A DNA stretch of 44,782 nt, from contig LCIE01000001.1 of NCBI GenBank assembly GCA_001000865.1, positions 1 to 44,782 on the forward strand, written 5' to 3'. Origin of the DNA: Candidatus Collierbacteria bacterium GW2011_GWC2_44_18. Lineage in GTDB: Bacteria > Patescibacteriota > Microgenomatia > UBA1400 > MFAQ01. Shown here piece after piece: positions 37,089 through 43,285 of this stretch. The stretch's first letter is position 1. Every line of letters starts with the position of its first letter. The notes under the pieces are model-generated. The model saw only the letters and a list, made by a program, of their open reading frames with translations, was not told where the DNA came from and made no database searches. The position numbers and the translations under genes are program-made.

Positions 37089-37709
37089 CTATAAGTACTT
37101 CGTAAACCACAAAGTTGTCAAATCAGACAACTTCTCCATAGCACCATCCTCTTCAAATAGATGCGTCGCCCCAGCCACGATTTCCAACTTTTTTATACAC
37201 CCGAGTTTTTGATATGCCAGTCGGTTATAACTTATCATCCCCTTGTCTTCTCCGCCAACAATCAAAAGGGTTGGAGACTCGATTAGATCCAAAACATCCA
37301 TCGCCAAATCTGGTCGTCCGCCATGGGTGACTACTGCCTTAATTTTAGTTCCCCAAAATGCCGCTGCGGAAAGAGCCGCGGCAGATCCAGTACTAGCTCC
37401 AAAATAACCCAAAGAGCACTCCTTCAGGTTTTCGTTTTCCAAACACCATTTAGTTACTGCAATCAATCTTTCTGTCAGCATTTCTATATTAAACCTATTT
37501 TCTTTTCTCCCACTCTCCTTTTCAGTTAACAGATCAAAATGCAAAGTGCCCATTCCCAATCTCTGCAACTCTTTCGTGACAAGCGAGTTCTTTTCTGACT
37601 TTCTTCCACTCCCACTGTCATGCACAAAAATCACCAAACCAATATTTTGTCTAGGCATTTCCAGCACTCCCTCAAGGTCAGTGTTTTGAATCGATATTTC
37701 AATTTCCAT
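37089..37709 (-). CDS. alpha/beta hydrolase (dienelactone-hydrolase-like)
   Basis: 206 residues: oxyanion segment VIFVHDSGSG, nucleophile elbow GYFGASTGSAAAL (GxSxG), Asp in IVGGEDKGM and His in AGATHLFEE, the complete Ser-Asp-His triad. No signal peptide. Substrate unknown. A TATATT lies 8 nt before the ATG. Confidence 0.85.
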   Translation of the reverse strand: MEIEISIQNTDLEGVLEMPRQNIGLVIFVHDSGSGRKSEKNSLVTKELQRLGMGTLHFDLLTEKESGRKENRFNIEMLTERLIAVTKWCLENENLKECSLGYFGASTGSAAALSAAAFWGTKIKAVVTHGGRPDLAMDVLDLIESPTLLIVGGEDKGMISYNRLAYQKLGCIKKLEIVAGATHLFEEDGAMEKLSDLTTLWFTKYL

Positions 37710-37764: not shown

Positions 37765-37795
37765 ATAAAAATAGCCCCGACTTTTACATCGGGGC
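37765..37795 (-). terminator. intrinsic terminator of the vWA/kinase/PP2C cassette
   Basis: Stem GCCCCGA/TCGGGGC (37774-37780 and 37789-37795), 8-nt loop, then on the minus strand TATTTTTATGG. It lies 20 nt after the vWA stop and closes the four-gene unit. Confidence 0.85.
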
Positions 37796-37814
37796 AAGAT
37801 AGGACTAAAGAGAA

Positions 37815-38624
37815 CTACGGTTGTCCAAAACCACCAAGCTGAGTCTGTGAGTAGGCAGCCGCACCCTGTGATCCGCGCGCGGCAGTCTGAGAGAAAGTTC
37901 CCCAGCACAGACGAATATCGTGTTCGGTTGCGGCCGGAGTAAGAATCCACTTATCCTGGATACCCATCCGCTTGAAGATGTCACGGAAGTCGGTACCCAC
38001 GTTATCCTGGATGCCCATGCCGGACACAATGTGTGTTTCGCTCTGAAGCACATCGCGCATGATGTCGACGATTTCTTCAGGACGGCGGATGCGGTGACTG
38101 TGTTCATCGTGACCATCGGTTACGATCATCGTCGCGGAGCGGACGGGCACACCACGGTCCGAAAATTCCTGAGTCTTGGCCAGCACATCACCCAAAGCGA
38201 CCACGGTCATATCGTAAAGCGGAGTCCCGCCATTCGCCCGATAATTATTGCTGTCCAAAAGCGGAACTTGTTCAATAGGGGTGAAAGGAATCACCACTTG
38301 TCCGTTCAGGTAACGCACGCACATCAAAATCGATTTGCGAGCATCGCTCTTGATCAGAGCACTCCGTACCAGGTTTACACCATCGCGGATGAGCTGTTCA
38401 TTTCCGGCACCGGCAATCGAGCCGGAGTCGTCCACGAGCAGGGTACAGACGAAAACCTCAGACGAATGCACGTCCACTGCCGGTACACCCATGGCCGCAT
38501 TGATCTGCGCGGCAATATCGGGGATAGACAGAATTGATTGAGCCGCTGAAGACAGGTTGCCCTCAGCGTTAGCGTTCGAAAACAGTGTCTGAATGTTTGC
38601 CACACCACTCTTAGAATTAGCCAT
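37815..38624 (-). CDS. TerY-like von Willebrand A domain protein
   Basis: A 269-residue cytosolic vWA protein. The MIDAS metal site is complete: D65-S67-S69 (VDDSGSIAG), T134 (NGGTPLYD) and D170 (IVTDGHDEH). An N-terminal helical region (1-50) precedes it and a Gly/Gln/Ala-rich tail (about 245-269) follows. TerY proteins work with a kinase and a PP2C phosphatase in stress or metal-response modules; the same partners are encoded here. AAGGAG lies 8 nt before the ATG. GC content is visibly above that of the surroundings. Confidence 0.87.
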   Translation of the reverse strand: MANSKSGVANIQTLFSNANAEGNLSSAAQSILSIPDIAAQINAAMGVPAVDVHSSEVFVCTLLVDDSGSIAGAGNEQLIRDGVNLVRSALIKSDARKSILMCVRYLNGQVVIPFTPIEQVPLLDSNNYRANGGTPLYDMTVVALGDVLAKTQEFSDRGVPVRSATMIVTDGHDEHSHRIRRPEEIVDIMRDVLQSETHIVSGMGIQDNVGTDFRDIFKRMGIQDKWILTPAATEHDIRLCWGTFSQTAARGSQGAAAYSQTQLGGFGQP

Positions 38625-38660
38625 TTTGTTTTCTCCTTGTTCGAAATTTAAATTTTAGAC

Positions 38661-39689
38661 TTACAGCTTGATCCCGGGCCAAGATTCGATCGGATCAGTC
38701 GACTTCACAATGTTCATGCCGGCCTTTGCAAAGCGAGCAAAAGCAGCGTTGGCATTGTCGGTGTGATCAACCACGCCGGGTACAACCACCGGGCTTGTGC
38801 AATCTTCGACCAAGTAGACCTTCTTTGCTAAAGACGGATCCACAGCCACAATTTCAGTCAGAAAATCGTCAACAGACCAGGAATAGCAATGACTCTTGGC
38901 CTGACCAACAATCGCCAGGTAATCGTAAGCCATCAAAGACTTAACGAATCCCGTACTTTTCTGCGCAATCGCCTGCTTCATGGCAAACAAGACTTCTGGG
39001 CGTAAAGCCGAGTAATTCTCGGACAAGACGTTACCACCCTTAATCTCAGTATGTGCATCCACTTCGCGAGCGAAGCTGTGGAACATCGCGGCCTCATGGA
39101 ATGAGGCAACCAGCGCGTGACCAATACCACCAAGCATAGCGTGGTACGGCCAAATGGTGAGTTTGTAACGACCTGCAGCTTCGAGCTGTGAATTGTAATC
39201 CAACAGATGTCCCTGCAACCAGGCATAATTTGCACCAGGCACACGGGAAACAACTGCCGGATTTACCATCCACTTACCGGACTTGATATCAGCCGTGCTG
39301 ACTTCAGAGTAGGGCGCAGGATGATTCCCCTTAGCATCAACCAACCACATCGCGTGGAAGATCTGTTGAGTAGTGTGGGTATCCATTGTAATTTCAAATC
39401 CTGTGATGGAACCCAAATTGCGATAGATAAACTCCACAAATCGGCGTGAATCATCCACAGCCCCGGTGCCCGAGCGTCCACCAACGAACAATTCAAAGCC
39501 GGGAATACAGAAGGTGTTCTGGTTATCGATCGCCATTACACCAAAGCGCACCTTGTCTTTCGACGCAGGTTTGATTCCGTACCATTTAGCCCATTTCGGA
39601 GCTTCGGCGGCCAACATTTCATAGTTCGGTTCCCAAACTTGGTTAACTTTCTTCGGATCATAATGAGCAGGCATAGGCAAATTGGACAT
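38661..39689 (-). CDS. large nicotinamidase/isochorismatase-like hydrolase
   Basis: 342 residues, against about 200 for PncA. The catalytic triad is visible: D55 (MAIDNQNTF), K217 (EIKGGNVLSENYSAL, matching the KG...YSAF region) and C268 (GQAKSHCYSWSV). A possible metal site is D103-x-H105 (MDTHTTQQ) and WPYHAM (180-185) matches the WPxHC motif. About 45 N-terminal residues and an insert around 115-175 are extra. It probably hydrolyses a nicotinamide-like amide, which would link the module to NAD metabolism. AAAGGAG precedes the ATG at 6 nt. Confidence 0.82.
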   Translation of the reverse strand: MSNLPMPAHYDPKKVNQVWEPNYEMLAAEAPKWAKWYGIKPASKDKVRFGVMAIDNQNTFCIPGFELFVGGRSGTGAVDDSRRFVEFIYRNLGSITGFEITMDTHTTQQIFHAMWLVDAKGNHPAPYSEVSTADIKSGKWMVNPAVVSRVPGANYAWLQGHLLDYNSQLEAAGRYKLTIWPYHAMLGGIGHALVASFHEAAMFHSFAREVDAHTEIKGGNVLSENYSALRPEVLFAMKQAIAQKSTGFVKSLMAYDYLAIVGQAKSHCYSWSVDDFLTEIVAVDPSLAKKVYLVEDCTSPVVVPGVVDHTDNANAAFARFAKAGMNIVKSTDPIESWPGIKL

Positions 39690-39709
39690 TTTATTCTCCT
39701 TTTAATTCG

Positions 39710-41584
39710 TTATCGGATCGAGAGTTTCACGATTTCGTGCTTACGAATTACAAAAACACCACCCGAACTTGAAAGCAAGAAGGAATTCTCGTCTAGATAT
39801 GGCTCTGTATCGGGAAACTCCTTAGTTTGGACAATTCTGCCGGATACAATCTCGGCCCGAACCATCCCCTGGTCTGTTGCACTCAACACGAAATTACTGA
39901 CCGGCAACTTACCCCGGATCTTCCCCAACCATGAACCATCTCCCATTTCGGCCTCCGCACTTGCTTCAATTCCCCCATCGCTATTGATCACCTGCACCCG
40001 GTTCATGATTTTAGACCCAATCTTTTCCGTGGTCATAAACCATGCCTTAGAGCCGGTAAATACACAAGTAGAATCAATTAGCTGACCCTTCACAGGAGAA
40101 ATCTTCACCGTATCATTTATCCCGGATCTATCGGCATCAAACACAAAAGCTCGGGTAAGGCTTCCGGCCCGGTAAAAACCGAAACCGAAATTCTCCCCAA
40201 CCCAGAAGAGCGTTTGACCCTCAAGTACCGAGCCCACAATCTCCGGCCCAATAGCTTCATTTCGATATAAGATTCCCCCGCTGGACCAGTACCAATGTTT
40301 TGAGTTGGCATCGATCAATGGCAGGTTTCCATAGCTATCGACCGGGACATTTTCGATCACCTTTCCGGCTTCAAGTACTACCATCCGACCATTTTTGGCC
40401 AGAACGGTTTTCTTTCCCTGCAACCGGTAGCGCATGTTAGAATCCAAGTCTCCTTCGAGTGCTACACTCCCATCTTCCCGGATAAACTTCCCGTTTTCGT
40501 GATAGATGTACTTAAGCTCTCCATTCTGAACCGAAGCGAAGATAACCAAACCTCGAGTCTGGAAAGCAAAATCAGCGCGAACACTCCCTCGAATCTGGGT
40601 AACTTTATGGGTTACGATGGATGCTGTGGAACAGTTCGGACATGCCGACTTGGCATGTTCCAAACCGCATTTGGGACACTTTCCGAAACGAATCTCCAAG
40701 AATTTAGCCGGAAACTCTCCCCGAAACCCTTTTTCGTAGGTTCGGAAGAAAAAATCCAGCAAATCATCAGGCAACACCTTCAAGGGAGTTGCGGGTTTGG
40801 GGTAAGTGACTTCAGCATTAAAAACGCTTATTCCGCGAAGGGGACGCACATCTTGCTTTACTTTCTTCGCATGGTCCTTTGGATTGTAAATTCCTCCCCA
40901 AGGACGCACAAAAAGCAAGGTCTCAAATAAAATCGTCGTAAAGGCGTACCAGTCCGACAACTTATCGTGAGGCTTCAAAAGAATCGGCGAGGTCATCTTC
41001 GGATCACATAGTCGGGGATCAACATAGTTTGCCGTAAACAGCCGGCTTAAGTACTTGCCGTACTGCATACTGTCGGCATCTACGATTCGAACGAATGATC
41101 CCTGTTTGAGTGCATTTAACGAGTTGAAGTCGGCTATCACCACGTCTGCGTCATGAATTTGTTTCACGGTCGGATGTAGATCGGCAAACGCCTCCAGCAT
41201 CATGTTGCAATCAATTCCACCCATTTCTCGAAAATCACGATCTGTGAATGAAAACAGTGGCTCAACGCCTCTTAAGAACTCCATTGTATATCCAAAAATC
41301 TTACGGCCGTTGACATCCGTCAGCAAACCTGTAGGCACCACTACTCTTGGAGGTAGTTTTGCGAAAGGGAAGTCCTTCAGTTTTGTCTGATGGACAGCAA
41401 TTCTTTCTGCAGCATATTTTTGCTGAATCGGGTCCAACTCAAAGTCTGGATCATCCGGTTCTTTAAAAATTTTTGCCACTTCACCACCACCAATGTCGTA
41501 GATGTATGCTTCTCCTCCTTTACCAACAAGTTTGCTTGGCTCCAAGGAGATCCGCACACCATTTCTGTAAGCAACTCTGTGCAT
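39710..41584 (-). CDS. protein kinase with zinc ribbon and C-terminal beta-rich sensor domain
   Basis: 624 residues. The kinase domain (about 12-290) has a Gly-rich loop (VGKGGEAYIYD), Lys38 (VAKIF), catalytic D152 with N157 (ADFNSLNAL) and D169 as the DFG-type Asp (RIVDADSMQ). A zinc ribbon uses C303, C306, C315 and C318. The rest (about 330-624) is repetitive beta structure such as a propeller (GKFIREDGSVALEG, SKHWYWSSGGILY). The closest parallel is the YegI kinase of E. coli, encoded with PP2C and vWA partners. GGAGG lies 5 nt before the ATG. Confidence 0.83.
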   Translation of the reverse strand: MHRVAYRNGVRISLEPSKLVGKGGEAYIYDIGGGEVAKIFKEPDDPDFELDPIQQKYAAERIAVHQTKLKDFPFAKLPPRVVVPTGLLTDVNGRKIFGYTMEFLRGVEPLFSFTDRDFREMGGIDCNMMLEAFADLHPTVKQIHDADVVIADFNSLNALKQGSFVRIVDADSMQYGKYLSRLFTANYVDPRLCDPKMTSPILLKPHDKLSDWYAFTTILFETLLFVRPWGGIYNPKDHAKKVKQDVRPLRGISVFNAEVTYPKPATPLKVLPDDLLDFFFRTYEKGFRGEFPAKFLEIRFGKCPKCGLEHAKSACPNCSTASIVTHKVTQIRGSVRADFAFQTRGLVIFASVQNGELKYIYHENGKFIREDGSVALEGDLDSNMRYRLQGKKTVLAKNGRMVVLEAGKVIENVPVDSYGNLPLIDANSKHWYWSSGGILYRNEAIGPEIVGSVLEGQTLFWVGENFGFGFYRAGSLTRAFVFDADRSGINDTVKISPVKGQLIDSTCVFTGSKAWFMTTEKIGSKIMNRVQVINSDGGIEASAEAEMGDGSWLGKIRGKLPVSNFVLSATDQGMVRAEIVSGRIVQTKEFPDTEPYLDENSFLLSSSGGVFVIRKHEIVKLSIR

Positions 41585-41597
41585 GATTTCCTCCAGT

Positions 41598-42446
41598 CTA
41601 ATATCTTCTTCCCACTACCAGCGCAAGATCGTCGGTGATAATGGCAGGGTGTACTTCTGCTCGTTTTTCATCCCATTTGATGATTTTTTTCTCGGTTGCC
41701 AACTGGTTCAACCGCCATCCGAGTGAAAACGTGTTATCGAAATAATCCTTCTCGTTCCAGAACTGCTCAGGACCACCAACTTCTGTGTTGGTTCCCGGTA
41801 CACGTTTCTTGGAGTCCGAAAGAATTCCCCCCAACCCGTCCGTTGAAATCATTACTGATTCCACCGATCTTGTCGGCACTACTTTCTTCACACTCAACTT
41901 CAGTTCTTCCGGAGACATTTTTCTTAAAGATGTTTCTACTAGGTTAAAAGCCAGGTATGGCGGCATATTGTCCACCGGGTTTGGCCTCACCTCGTACATC
42001 TCTCCGTTGAGGAAGTAATAACCGTCCCCGAGAGACACAAACAATGTGATATCGGGTGTTACTACCATCCCCACCAGGGTAAAAAGAAAATGACTAATCA
42101 CGACTTGTTTGTAGTTTCCGCCCATTCCTCGGGCTGCATCGTCCATTTTTTCCAAGGAGTGTCTTTGAACATCTCCCCAGAAGCCTGTACTTTGCAAGGT
42201 GCTGTTCCAGCGCCATTTCGATGTAGTTTCCAGTTTAGCCGCGACGTAATTAACAGCAGTTGTAACTCCTTGTCTTGATCCCATCTCCGAATATGGTGAA
42301 TAAATTGCATCACCGCATCCATCAGCCACAAAAGCCACTAAAAATTCCGGCTTTTGAAGCATTTTGAGTGCATCTTGGCAGTTCTTCTTAGTCGCTACAT
42401 GATCCGCTCCAATAACAATTCCAGAGCTAAACATAAATTGACTCAC
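41598..42446 (-). CDS. PP2C-family protein phosphatase
   Basis: About 282 residues. It has the PP2C metal motifs: Asp in KKNCQDALK, FVADGCGDA (DG), SLGDGYYFL, STDGLGGIL and TDDLALVVGRR at the C-terminus. The annotated-looking ATG at 42461 has AAGGAGG just inside it, and this sits 5 nt upstream of a GTG at 42446; the GTG is therefore the more likely start. It should oppose the kinase encoded next to it, 13 nt downstream. Confidence 0.87.
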   Translation of the reverse strand: MSQFMFSSGIVIGADHVATKKNCQDALKMLQKPEFLVAFVADGCGDAIYSPYSEMGSRQGVTTAVNYVAAKLETTSKWRWNSTLQSTGFWGDVQRHSLEKMDDAARGMGGNYKQVVISHFLFTLVGMVVTPDITLFVSLGDGYYFLNGEMYEVRPNPVDNMPPYLAFNLVETSLRKMSPEELKLSVKKVVPTRSVESVMISTDGLGGILSDSKKRVPGTNTEVGGPEQFWNEKDYFDNTFSLGWRLNQLATEKKIIKWDEKRAEVHPAIITDDLALVVGRRY

Positions 42447-42484
42447 GTCTTCCTCCTTCATTTCTTAAACTAACATAGTTCACT

Positions 42485-42580
42485 TGTCAACGTACATCGT
42501 TGATTATAGTACCTAAACGTATCAAACCATGTCTTTATCAACTTCTACTTATTGTATATCATACACCAACTCCTTGTCAA
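42485..42580 (-). promoter_or_regulatory. promoter region of the kinase/phosphatase cassette
   Basis: Minus strand, in order: TTGACA (42580-42575), 18-bp spacer and TACAAT (42556-42551); then TATAAT (42508-42503) overlapping a 6-bp-arm palindrome TCAACG/CGTTGA (42487-42503); then a second TTGACA (42490-42485). The leader from the first promoter would be about 100 nt, unlike the leaderless neighbours. The palindrome could be an operator. Confidence 0.5.
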
Positions 42581-42712: not shown

Positions 42713-43285
42713 ATGAACAAATCAAGTTTCTTGGTAAAAGCTATCTCTGGCTTCTTCCTTTTTCTGATACTCGTTTCACCAGCACTGGCAACGAAACCAG
42801 ACAATATCGGTGTTGGTGCCGGTAACTCAAAAAAACCAACAACCATCGTTACCACCGCCAGAATGAAGTCTTGCCAGGCCAAAGAATCGGCCGTCAAAAT
42901 ACGTATGACCCAATTAACGAAACTCGTTACTACCATGGAAACGGTTTTCGATAAAATCTCCAACCGTGTCATAAAATACTACACCGAAAAGGTTGTTCCT
43001 TCCGGAAAATCACTATCCGATTACACTACCTTAATCAACAATATCTCCACTCAAAAATCATCTGTTCAAACCGCACTCGACAAAGCCAAGGCGGATATCT
43101 CCGCTTTCAATTGTGACTCCGAAAATCCAGGAACTCTCTTGCTCCAGTTTAATACCAATATGAAATTGGTCAAGGGTGCTCTCAAAACATACAGAACGGC
43201 CATCAACAAGCTCATTGTCGCTATCAGGACTATCCCCACCCCATCCCCAACCACCACTTCCACTAATAATATCAACACTAATTAA
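42713..43285 (+). CDS. secreted helical protein, unknown function
   Basis: 190 residues. A signal peptide (1-26, ending SPALA) precedes a helical body with two Cys (C54, C123-region DC) that may pair, rich in Lys, Thr and Ser, and a Pro/Thr/Asn tail (PTPSPTTTSTNN). No family recognised. It may be a surface or pilin-like accessory. The next gene begins directly after its stop (TAAATG). Confidence 0.65.
   Translation: MNKSSFLVKAISGFFLFLILVSPALATKPDNIGVGAGNSKKPTTIVTTARMKSCQAKESAVKIRMTQLTKLVTTMETVFDKISNRVIKYYTEKVVPSGKSLSDYTTLINNISTQKSSVQTALDKAKADISAFNCDSENPGTLLLQFNTNMKLVKGALKTYRTAINKLIVAIRTIPTPSPTTTSTNNINTN

Follow-up and report, generated by a model that had tools for sequence, protein, structure and literature searches.

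The window, a 44,782-nucleotide stretch of DNA from Candidatus Collierbacteria bacterium GW2011_GWC2_44_18, encodes a four-gene operon that combines a PP2C-type protein phosphatase, a Ser/Thr kinase, a nicotinamidase-like hydrolase (NIC) and a vWA protein into what is probably a phosphorylation-controlled nicotinamide-salvage module. The strongest evidence for the nicotinamide-salvage reading is the genomic context, as NAD(P)-synthesis genes neighbour the module in both viruses and bacteria, in line with the NAD theme of the original prediction. The four co-directional open reading frames (ORFs) occupy positions 37815–42461 of the minus strand and lie between two conserved border genes:

37089–37709, minus strand: alpha/beta-hydrolase-like gene, the conserved left border outside the module (identity across the genus)
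37774–37795, minus strand: intrinsic terminator-like stem (8 bp, 6 GC) and T-run directly after the vWA gene (pattern match only)
37815–38624, minus strand: TerY/YegL-like vWA protein with an intact MIDAS and a Ser-rich C-terminal tail (conserved residues, HHalign)
38661–39689, minus strand: predicted PncA-type nicotinamidase with an N-terminal extension and inserts (residues, profile, AF2, Foldseek)
39710–41584, minus strand: YegI/TerY-P-type Ser/Thr kinase with a zinc ribbon and a beta-propeller-like C-terminus (HHalign, conserved residues, AF2, Foldseek)
41598–42461, minus strand: PP2C-type protein phosphatase, gene 1 (PF13672, metal-site residues, PphC/YegK homology)
42551–42580, minus strand: sigma-70-like promoter TTGACA-18-TACAAT, 11/12 consensus (pattern match only)
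42713–43285, plus strand: 190-aa ORF, the conserved right border outside the module (syntenic in relatives G001, G002 and G006)

Gaps of 13–36 bp separate the four genes, in agreement with the predicted one-directional unit with a promoter and terminator; these two signals are consensus matches of a kind whose regional totals are only modestly above those of shuffled sequence. Good Shine-Dalgarno sites had been claimed for all four genes and were read directly from the DNA, with GGAGG 5′ of the kinase gene, AAGGAG 5′ of both the NIC and vWA genes, and AAGGAGG for the PP2C gene. This last site falls inside the listed ATG reading frame, and the true PP2C start is therefore probably the GTG at 42446. 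The raised GC content noted at the outset also held, as the operon reaches 0.482 compared to 0.420 for the remaining window and every other stretch of the same length is at or below 0.444. PP2C is the sole member of the four to exceed a Pfam cut-off (PF13672, E = 6e-18); the kinase, NIC and vWA proteins match no Pfam family above cut-off and are thus easily overlooked in routine annotation.

Fold, profile, active-site residues and context make a strong predictive case that NIC is a nicotinamidase. Residues D55, D103xH105, H183, K217 and C268 are invariant among 50 homologues, with D55, K217 and C268 forming the catalytic triad and D103, H105 and H183 belonging to the metal site, so that the intact Asp-Lys-Cys triad read from the single sequence extends across these homologues. 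A profile of the same 50 homologues places solved nicotinamidases first (best 1e-17), and the AF2 model of NIC (pLDDT 96.3) has nicotinamidases as its best Foldseek matches (2wta, E = 1.2e-11, TMt 0.79); the catalytic residues align in both the profile and structure searches, the check that had been proposed for this protein. Compared to the PncA/Pnc1 nicotinamidases (2wt9, 2h0r, 1ilw), NIC agrees in fold, in its D-K-C triad and in the metal-site residues, but at about 340 aa it has an N-terminal extension and inserts, shares about 15–17% identity, and is encoded in an operon with a phosphorylation triad. Fold and context point to nicotinamide rather than other amides as the likely substrate. 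One viral homologue of NIC falls just short of the PF00857 threshold, scoring 26.3 where 27 is required. PDB matches obtained for NIC and vWA from single-sequence searches were spurious and were discarded; profiles were required.

The remaining three proteins form a TerY-P/Yeg-type triad, as originally proposed, with profile homology to E. coli YegI, PphC (YegK) and YegL. The kinase is homologous to YegI (HHalign probability 99.3), and among 40 homologues K38, D152 and D169 are invariant and N157 is conserved in at least 90%. Its architecture comprises a kinase domain (residues about 1–300), a CxxC..CxxC zinc ribbon (about 304–320; CPKCG...CPNC in the window) C-terminal to the kinase domain, and a propeller-like domain (about 329–624). 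In the AF2 model (pLDDT 92.4) the C-terminal half is almost wholly beta strands, and the top Foldseek match is the kinase-WD40 protein LRRK2, with a WD40-looking spliceosome chain also listed; TM-scores are low for both, which makes a beta-propeller the likely, unproven reading of this modelled domain. The ribbon pattern is present in 7 of 8 relatives and all 12 bacterial kinases examined, compared to 6 of 89 viral kinases. PP2C is homologous to PphC (HHalign probability 96.9) and vWA to YegL, tail included (96.1). The metal-site residues of both proteins are invariant or nearly so across 12 sequences, and in vWA the MIDAS (DDSGS...T134...D170) is intact and is invariant together with residues S245, S252 and F266 of the C-terminal tail. 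Active-site residues are thus conserved across homologues of all four proteins, as expected from the complete catalytic motifs recognised in the original prediction.

A co-occurrence survey, set beforehand as a refutation test, found the hydrolase in the locus in the same order in all 8 sampled relatives that carry the triad. These relatives span three genera (six from the same genus, G013 from another genus of the same family, and G075 from another family of the same order) and all retain the order PP2C–kinase–NIC–vWA. NIC of G007 is split into two ORFs by a frameshift, either real or arising in assembly (L058:4238-5109), and G003 encodes a solo, fast-evolving NIC with the triad absent nearby (L059:7079-7909). 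More broadly, a scan of bacterial and archaeal genomes returned 566 NIC matches. Among the best 80 of these 566 loci, all four genes lie within 8 kb in 10, mostly in cyanobacteria and in one Parcubacterium, and NIC stands without the triad within 8 kb in 66, suggesting that in bacteria the phosphorylation switch is an optional layer.

In viruses the complete set is common. IMG/VR yielded 102 NIC loci, or 78 after removal of near-identical hydrolases, and in 66 of these 78 all four genes lie on one strand within 8 kb. The viral gene order is NIC–vWA–PP2C–kinase in 56 loci and PP2C–kinase–NIC–vWA in 8, which identifies two fixed pairs, NIC–vWA and PP2C–kinase, as the lasting feature of the module. 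NIC and vWA remain close and in the same order in relatives, cyanobacteria and viruses despite less than 30% identity in many pairs; chance adjacency would not survive such divergence and is excluded as an explanation. Many viral copies are on contigs of 200–480 kb. A PF03237 terminase was detected in 7 of 20 long virus records checked (204–595 kb), and the other records may have divergent terminases or be misclassified. One set of related viral contigs (L154, L156–L160) instead encodes a stand-alone nicotinamidase with no triad within 8 kb, close to genes resembling tail-sheath and other structural proteins.

NAD genes often neighbour the module across this range. On Parcubacteria contig VMFW01000009.1 (L074:2675-12761), PP2C, kinase, NIC and vWA open a same-strand run that continues with a NadD–NAD kinase fusion, a Nudix hydrolase and NAPRTase and ends with deoxyribosyltransferase-like and PRPP-synthase-like ORFs, these last two read from the sequence rather than typed by a model. 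Viral neighbours, NadM-Nudix among them, were typed through representatives with Pfam and NCBIfam before their clusters were counted; within 8 kb, one or more of NAPRTase (19), NadE (18), NadM (16) and MazG-NadD (8) accompany 38 of the 78 viral loci. A PF04095 protein was found in 14 of 20 long viral records tested, 9 of them strongly, whereas tblastn queried with a single viral NAPRTase gave hits in 13 of 50,697 phage records, a contrast that is indicative only because tblastn is the less sensitive method. Cyanobacterial modules adjoin NrtR in three loci (L064, L067, L086; one representative typed), and six triad-less NIC genes adjoin NAPRTase or stand a few genes away from it. Variovorax sp. 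SRS16 plasmid 2, an 801-kb megaplasmid (L044), encodes NIC and vWA, with genes for Nudix, macro-domain and NAD kinase proteins close by; AlkB, RNase HII and RecX genes are also in the vicinity.

The host genome itself encodes NAPRTase (TIGR01514) and NadE (TIGR00552), both above cut-off, and a candidate NadM/NadR-like adenylyltransferase that scores far below the cut-offs of its models; a search of this genome found no NadD-type adenylyltransferase. NAPRTase and NIC (9 and 10 in total) occur together in 8 of 138 relatives (Fisher p = 1.5e-10, kinship ignored), a co-occurrence that comes mostly from one genus and extends beyond it in one genome. G075 has the module with no NAPRTase detected, and G005 has NAPRTase with the module absent.

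These observations suggest a mechanism in which the module feeds and controls NAD salvage. Nicotinamide is released when ADP-ribosyl transferases, sirtuins, NADases or toxins cleave NAD+. NIC would convert this nicotinamide to nicotinate, which enters the Preiss-Handler route and is processed in turn by NAPRTase, an adenylyltransferase and NadE. As the gene that pairs with NIC in nearly all loci, vWA encodes a likely NIC partner or adaptor, and the kinase and PP2C, themselves paired, would set the phosphorylation state of vWA or NIC and thereby switch or localise salvage. The conserved Ser-rich vWA tail is a prime candidate phosphorylation site, and the propeller-like domain and zinc ribbon of the kinase probably serve in sensing or docking. 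The fold, residues and context of NIC support the enzyme step. For the control step, action of the triad on NIC is inferred from the fixed gene pairs, the intact catalytic sites and the conserved vWA tail; which way the control runs, and to which signal it responds, are likewise matters of inference.

The same gene neighbourhoods can be read as a sign that ADP-ribosylation or sirtuin/NADase chemistry, and not NAD supply, is what the module controls. According to this explanation, kinase- and phosphatase-controlled clearing of nicotinamide, a product inhibitor, would tune NAD-consuming signalling or defence. Six cyanobacterial loci do have an ADP-ribosylglycohydrolase gene separating PP2C from the kinase (one representative typed), and macro-domain and Nudix genes occur close to copies in viruses and Variovorax. 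Synthesis genes (NAPRTase, NadD/M, NadE and NAD kinase) are commoner neighbours, however, and the partners seen in the window's own genome are synthetic, and we therefore regard this explanation as unlikely.

Two further alternatives start from the triad. If it were a metal- or stress-responsive TerY/Yeg-type unit, the hydrolase gene could be a passive operon neighbour, as its homology to YegI/YegK/YegL, a locus with no such gene annotated in between, might suggest; the NIC–vWA proximity and order preserved across relatives, cyanobacteria and viruses make this very improbable. The module could also be a TerY-P-type anti-phage defence system with the triad as sensor and the nicotinamidase as effector, a proposal to which we give little credence. 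In its favour, a link to defence is described for TerY-P triads (PMC11090510), immune systems commonly target NAD, and the module is horizontally displaced within the genus, but a large share of copies is in viral contigs and not in hosts, a nicotinamidase is biosynthetic and without obvious toxicity, and the neighbours are NAD-synthesis rather than defence genes. In addition, none of the four proteins matches a PADLOC 2.0 model at an E threshold of 0.1, and the reading of the locus as a defence island was dropped on this ground. Controlled nicotinamide salvage remains our preferred reading.

Comparison with known systems defines what the module adds. In the E. coli yegI–pphC(yegK)–yegL locus, kinase, PP2C and vWA are all homologous to those of the module, the YegI alignment extends to the CxxC region, and YegL shares the Ser-rich tail, whereas no nicotinamidase and no NAD genes are annotated there. 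We know of no defined substrate for Yeg/TerY triads, and if the salvage reading is correct these triads gain a concrete, testable one. Bacterial NAD salvage is known to be controlled chiefly at the level of transcription, as by NrtR; coupling nicotinamidase to a dedicated kinase–phosphatase–vWA unit would add a new tier to this control. TerY-P triads, including those of CoCoNuT type II/III-A (PMC11090510), similarly consist of vWA, PP2C and a Ser/Thr kinase with a C-terminal zinc ribbon. The module differs from them in its fourth conserved enzyme, its post-ribbon propeller-like domain, its NAD-synthesis context and the scarcity of the ribbon pattern among viral kinases.

Phage NAD+ synthesis systems (NadV/NadM/NadR, PMC9503650; NARP1, PMC12774641) share with the module the phage-encoded rebuilding of NAD+; what sets the module apart is that it enters the Preiss-Handler route by deamidation and includes a kinase/PP2C/vWA triad. 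NadV, NadM and NadR are covered in two reviews of such phage systems, in which term searches returned neither nicotinamidase by name nor a triad of this kind. A gut-phage paper lists nicotinamidase in a table without further context, and we found no description of the four-gene module in the open-licence literature searched. The module is frequent in viral collections, which suggests that huge phages have Preiss-Handler entry under regulation, a strategy that would be relevant to NAD-depletion immunity and goes unnamed in both of the phage NAD reviews searched. More tentatively, the module may be a four-component system that is widespread, passes horizontally between genomes and gates nicotinamide salvage through reversible protein phosphorylation, with reduced-genome bacteria and cyanobacteria using it to hold their NAD pool and many huge phages using it to keep NAD+ up in infection, possibly against NAD-depleting immunity.

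Exchange of the module is evident within the genus, where the left border gene is 62–78% identical and the module drops to 20–35% in most members. Between the window genome and G002/G006, three left flank genes are 66–98% identical and the right flank gene 62–68%, compared to 33–34% for NIC and 26% for the kinase; in G001, NIC and kinase are 68–70% identical to the window copies and the flanking genes 46–76%. The module is inverted at the same site in G002, G006 and G008. A NIC tree with several long branches and bootstrap not fully settled places the window and G001 sequences within a clade (97/90) drawn from cyanobacteria and other bacteria and groups the remaining genus members with viral sequences (97/89). 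A divergent module at the same site among far more similar flanks indicates that, judged by sequence comparison, the module is horizontally displaced in place, which together with the NIC tree upholds the transfer suggested by the original prediction. A search via the left-flank gene found no empty site in G005 or G003.

If the more tentative four-component reading holds, the replacement of one divergent version by another at fixed chromosomal sites, seen for the module and for an unlinked NAPRTase gene, would point to conflict over NAD. NAPRTase is unlinked to the module in G002. A genus-wide match of NAPRTase types to module types was considered and rejected, as it holds for the window and G001 and fails elsewhere; G002 has the module type of G006 and G008 but not their NAPRTase type. 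Across the genus the NAPRTase gene occupies one conserved chromosomal site (L250:6363-7568 on contig C18 of the window's own genome; L252–L259), where it exists as three types mutually 24–33% identical among neighbours that are mostly 62–95% identical, pointing to repeated in-place replacement.
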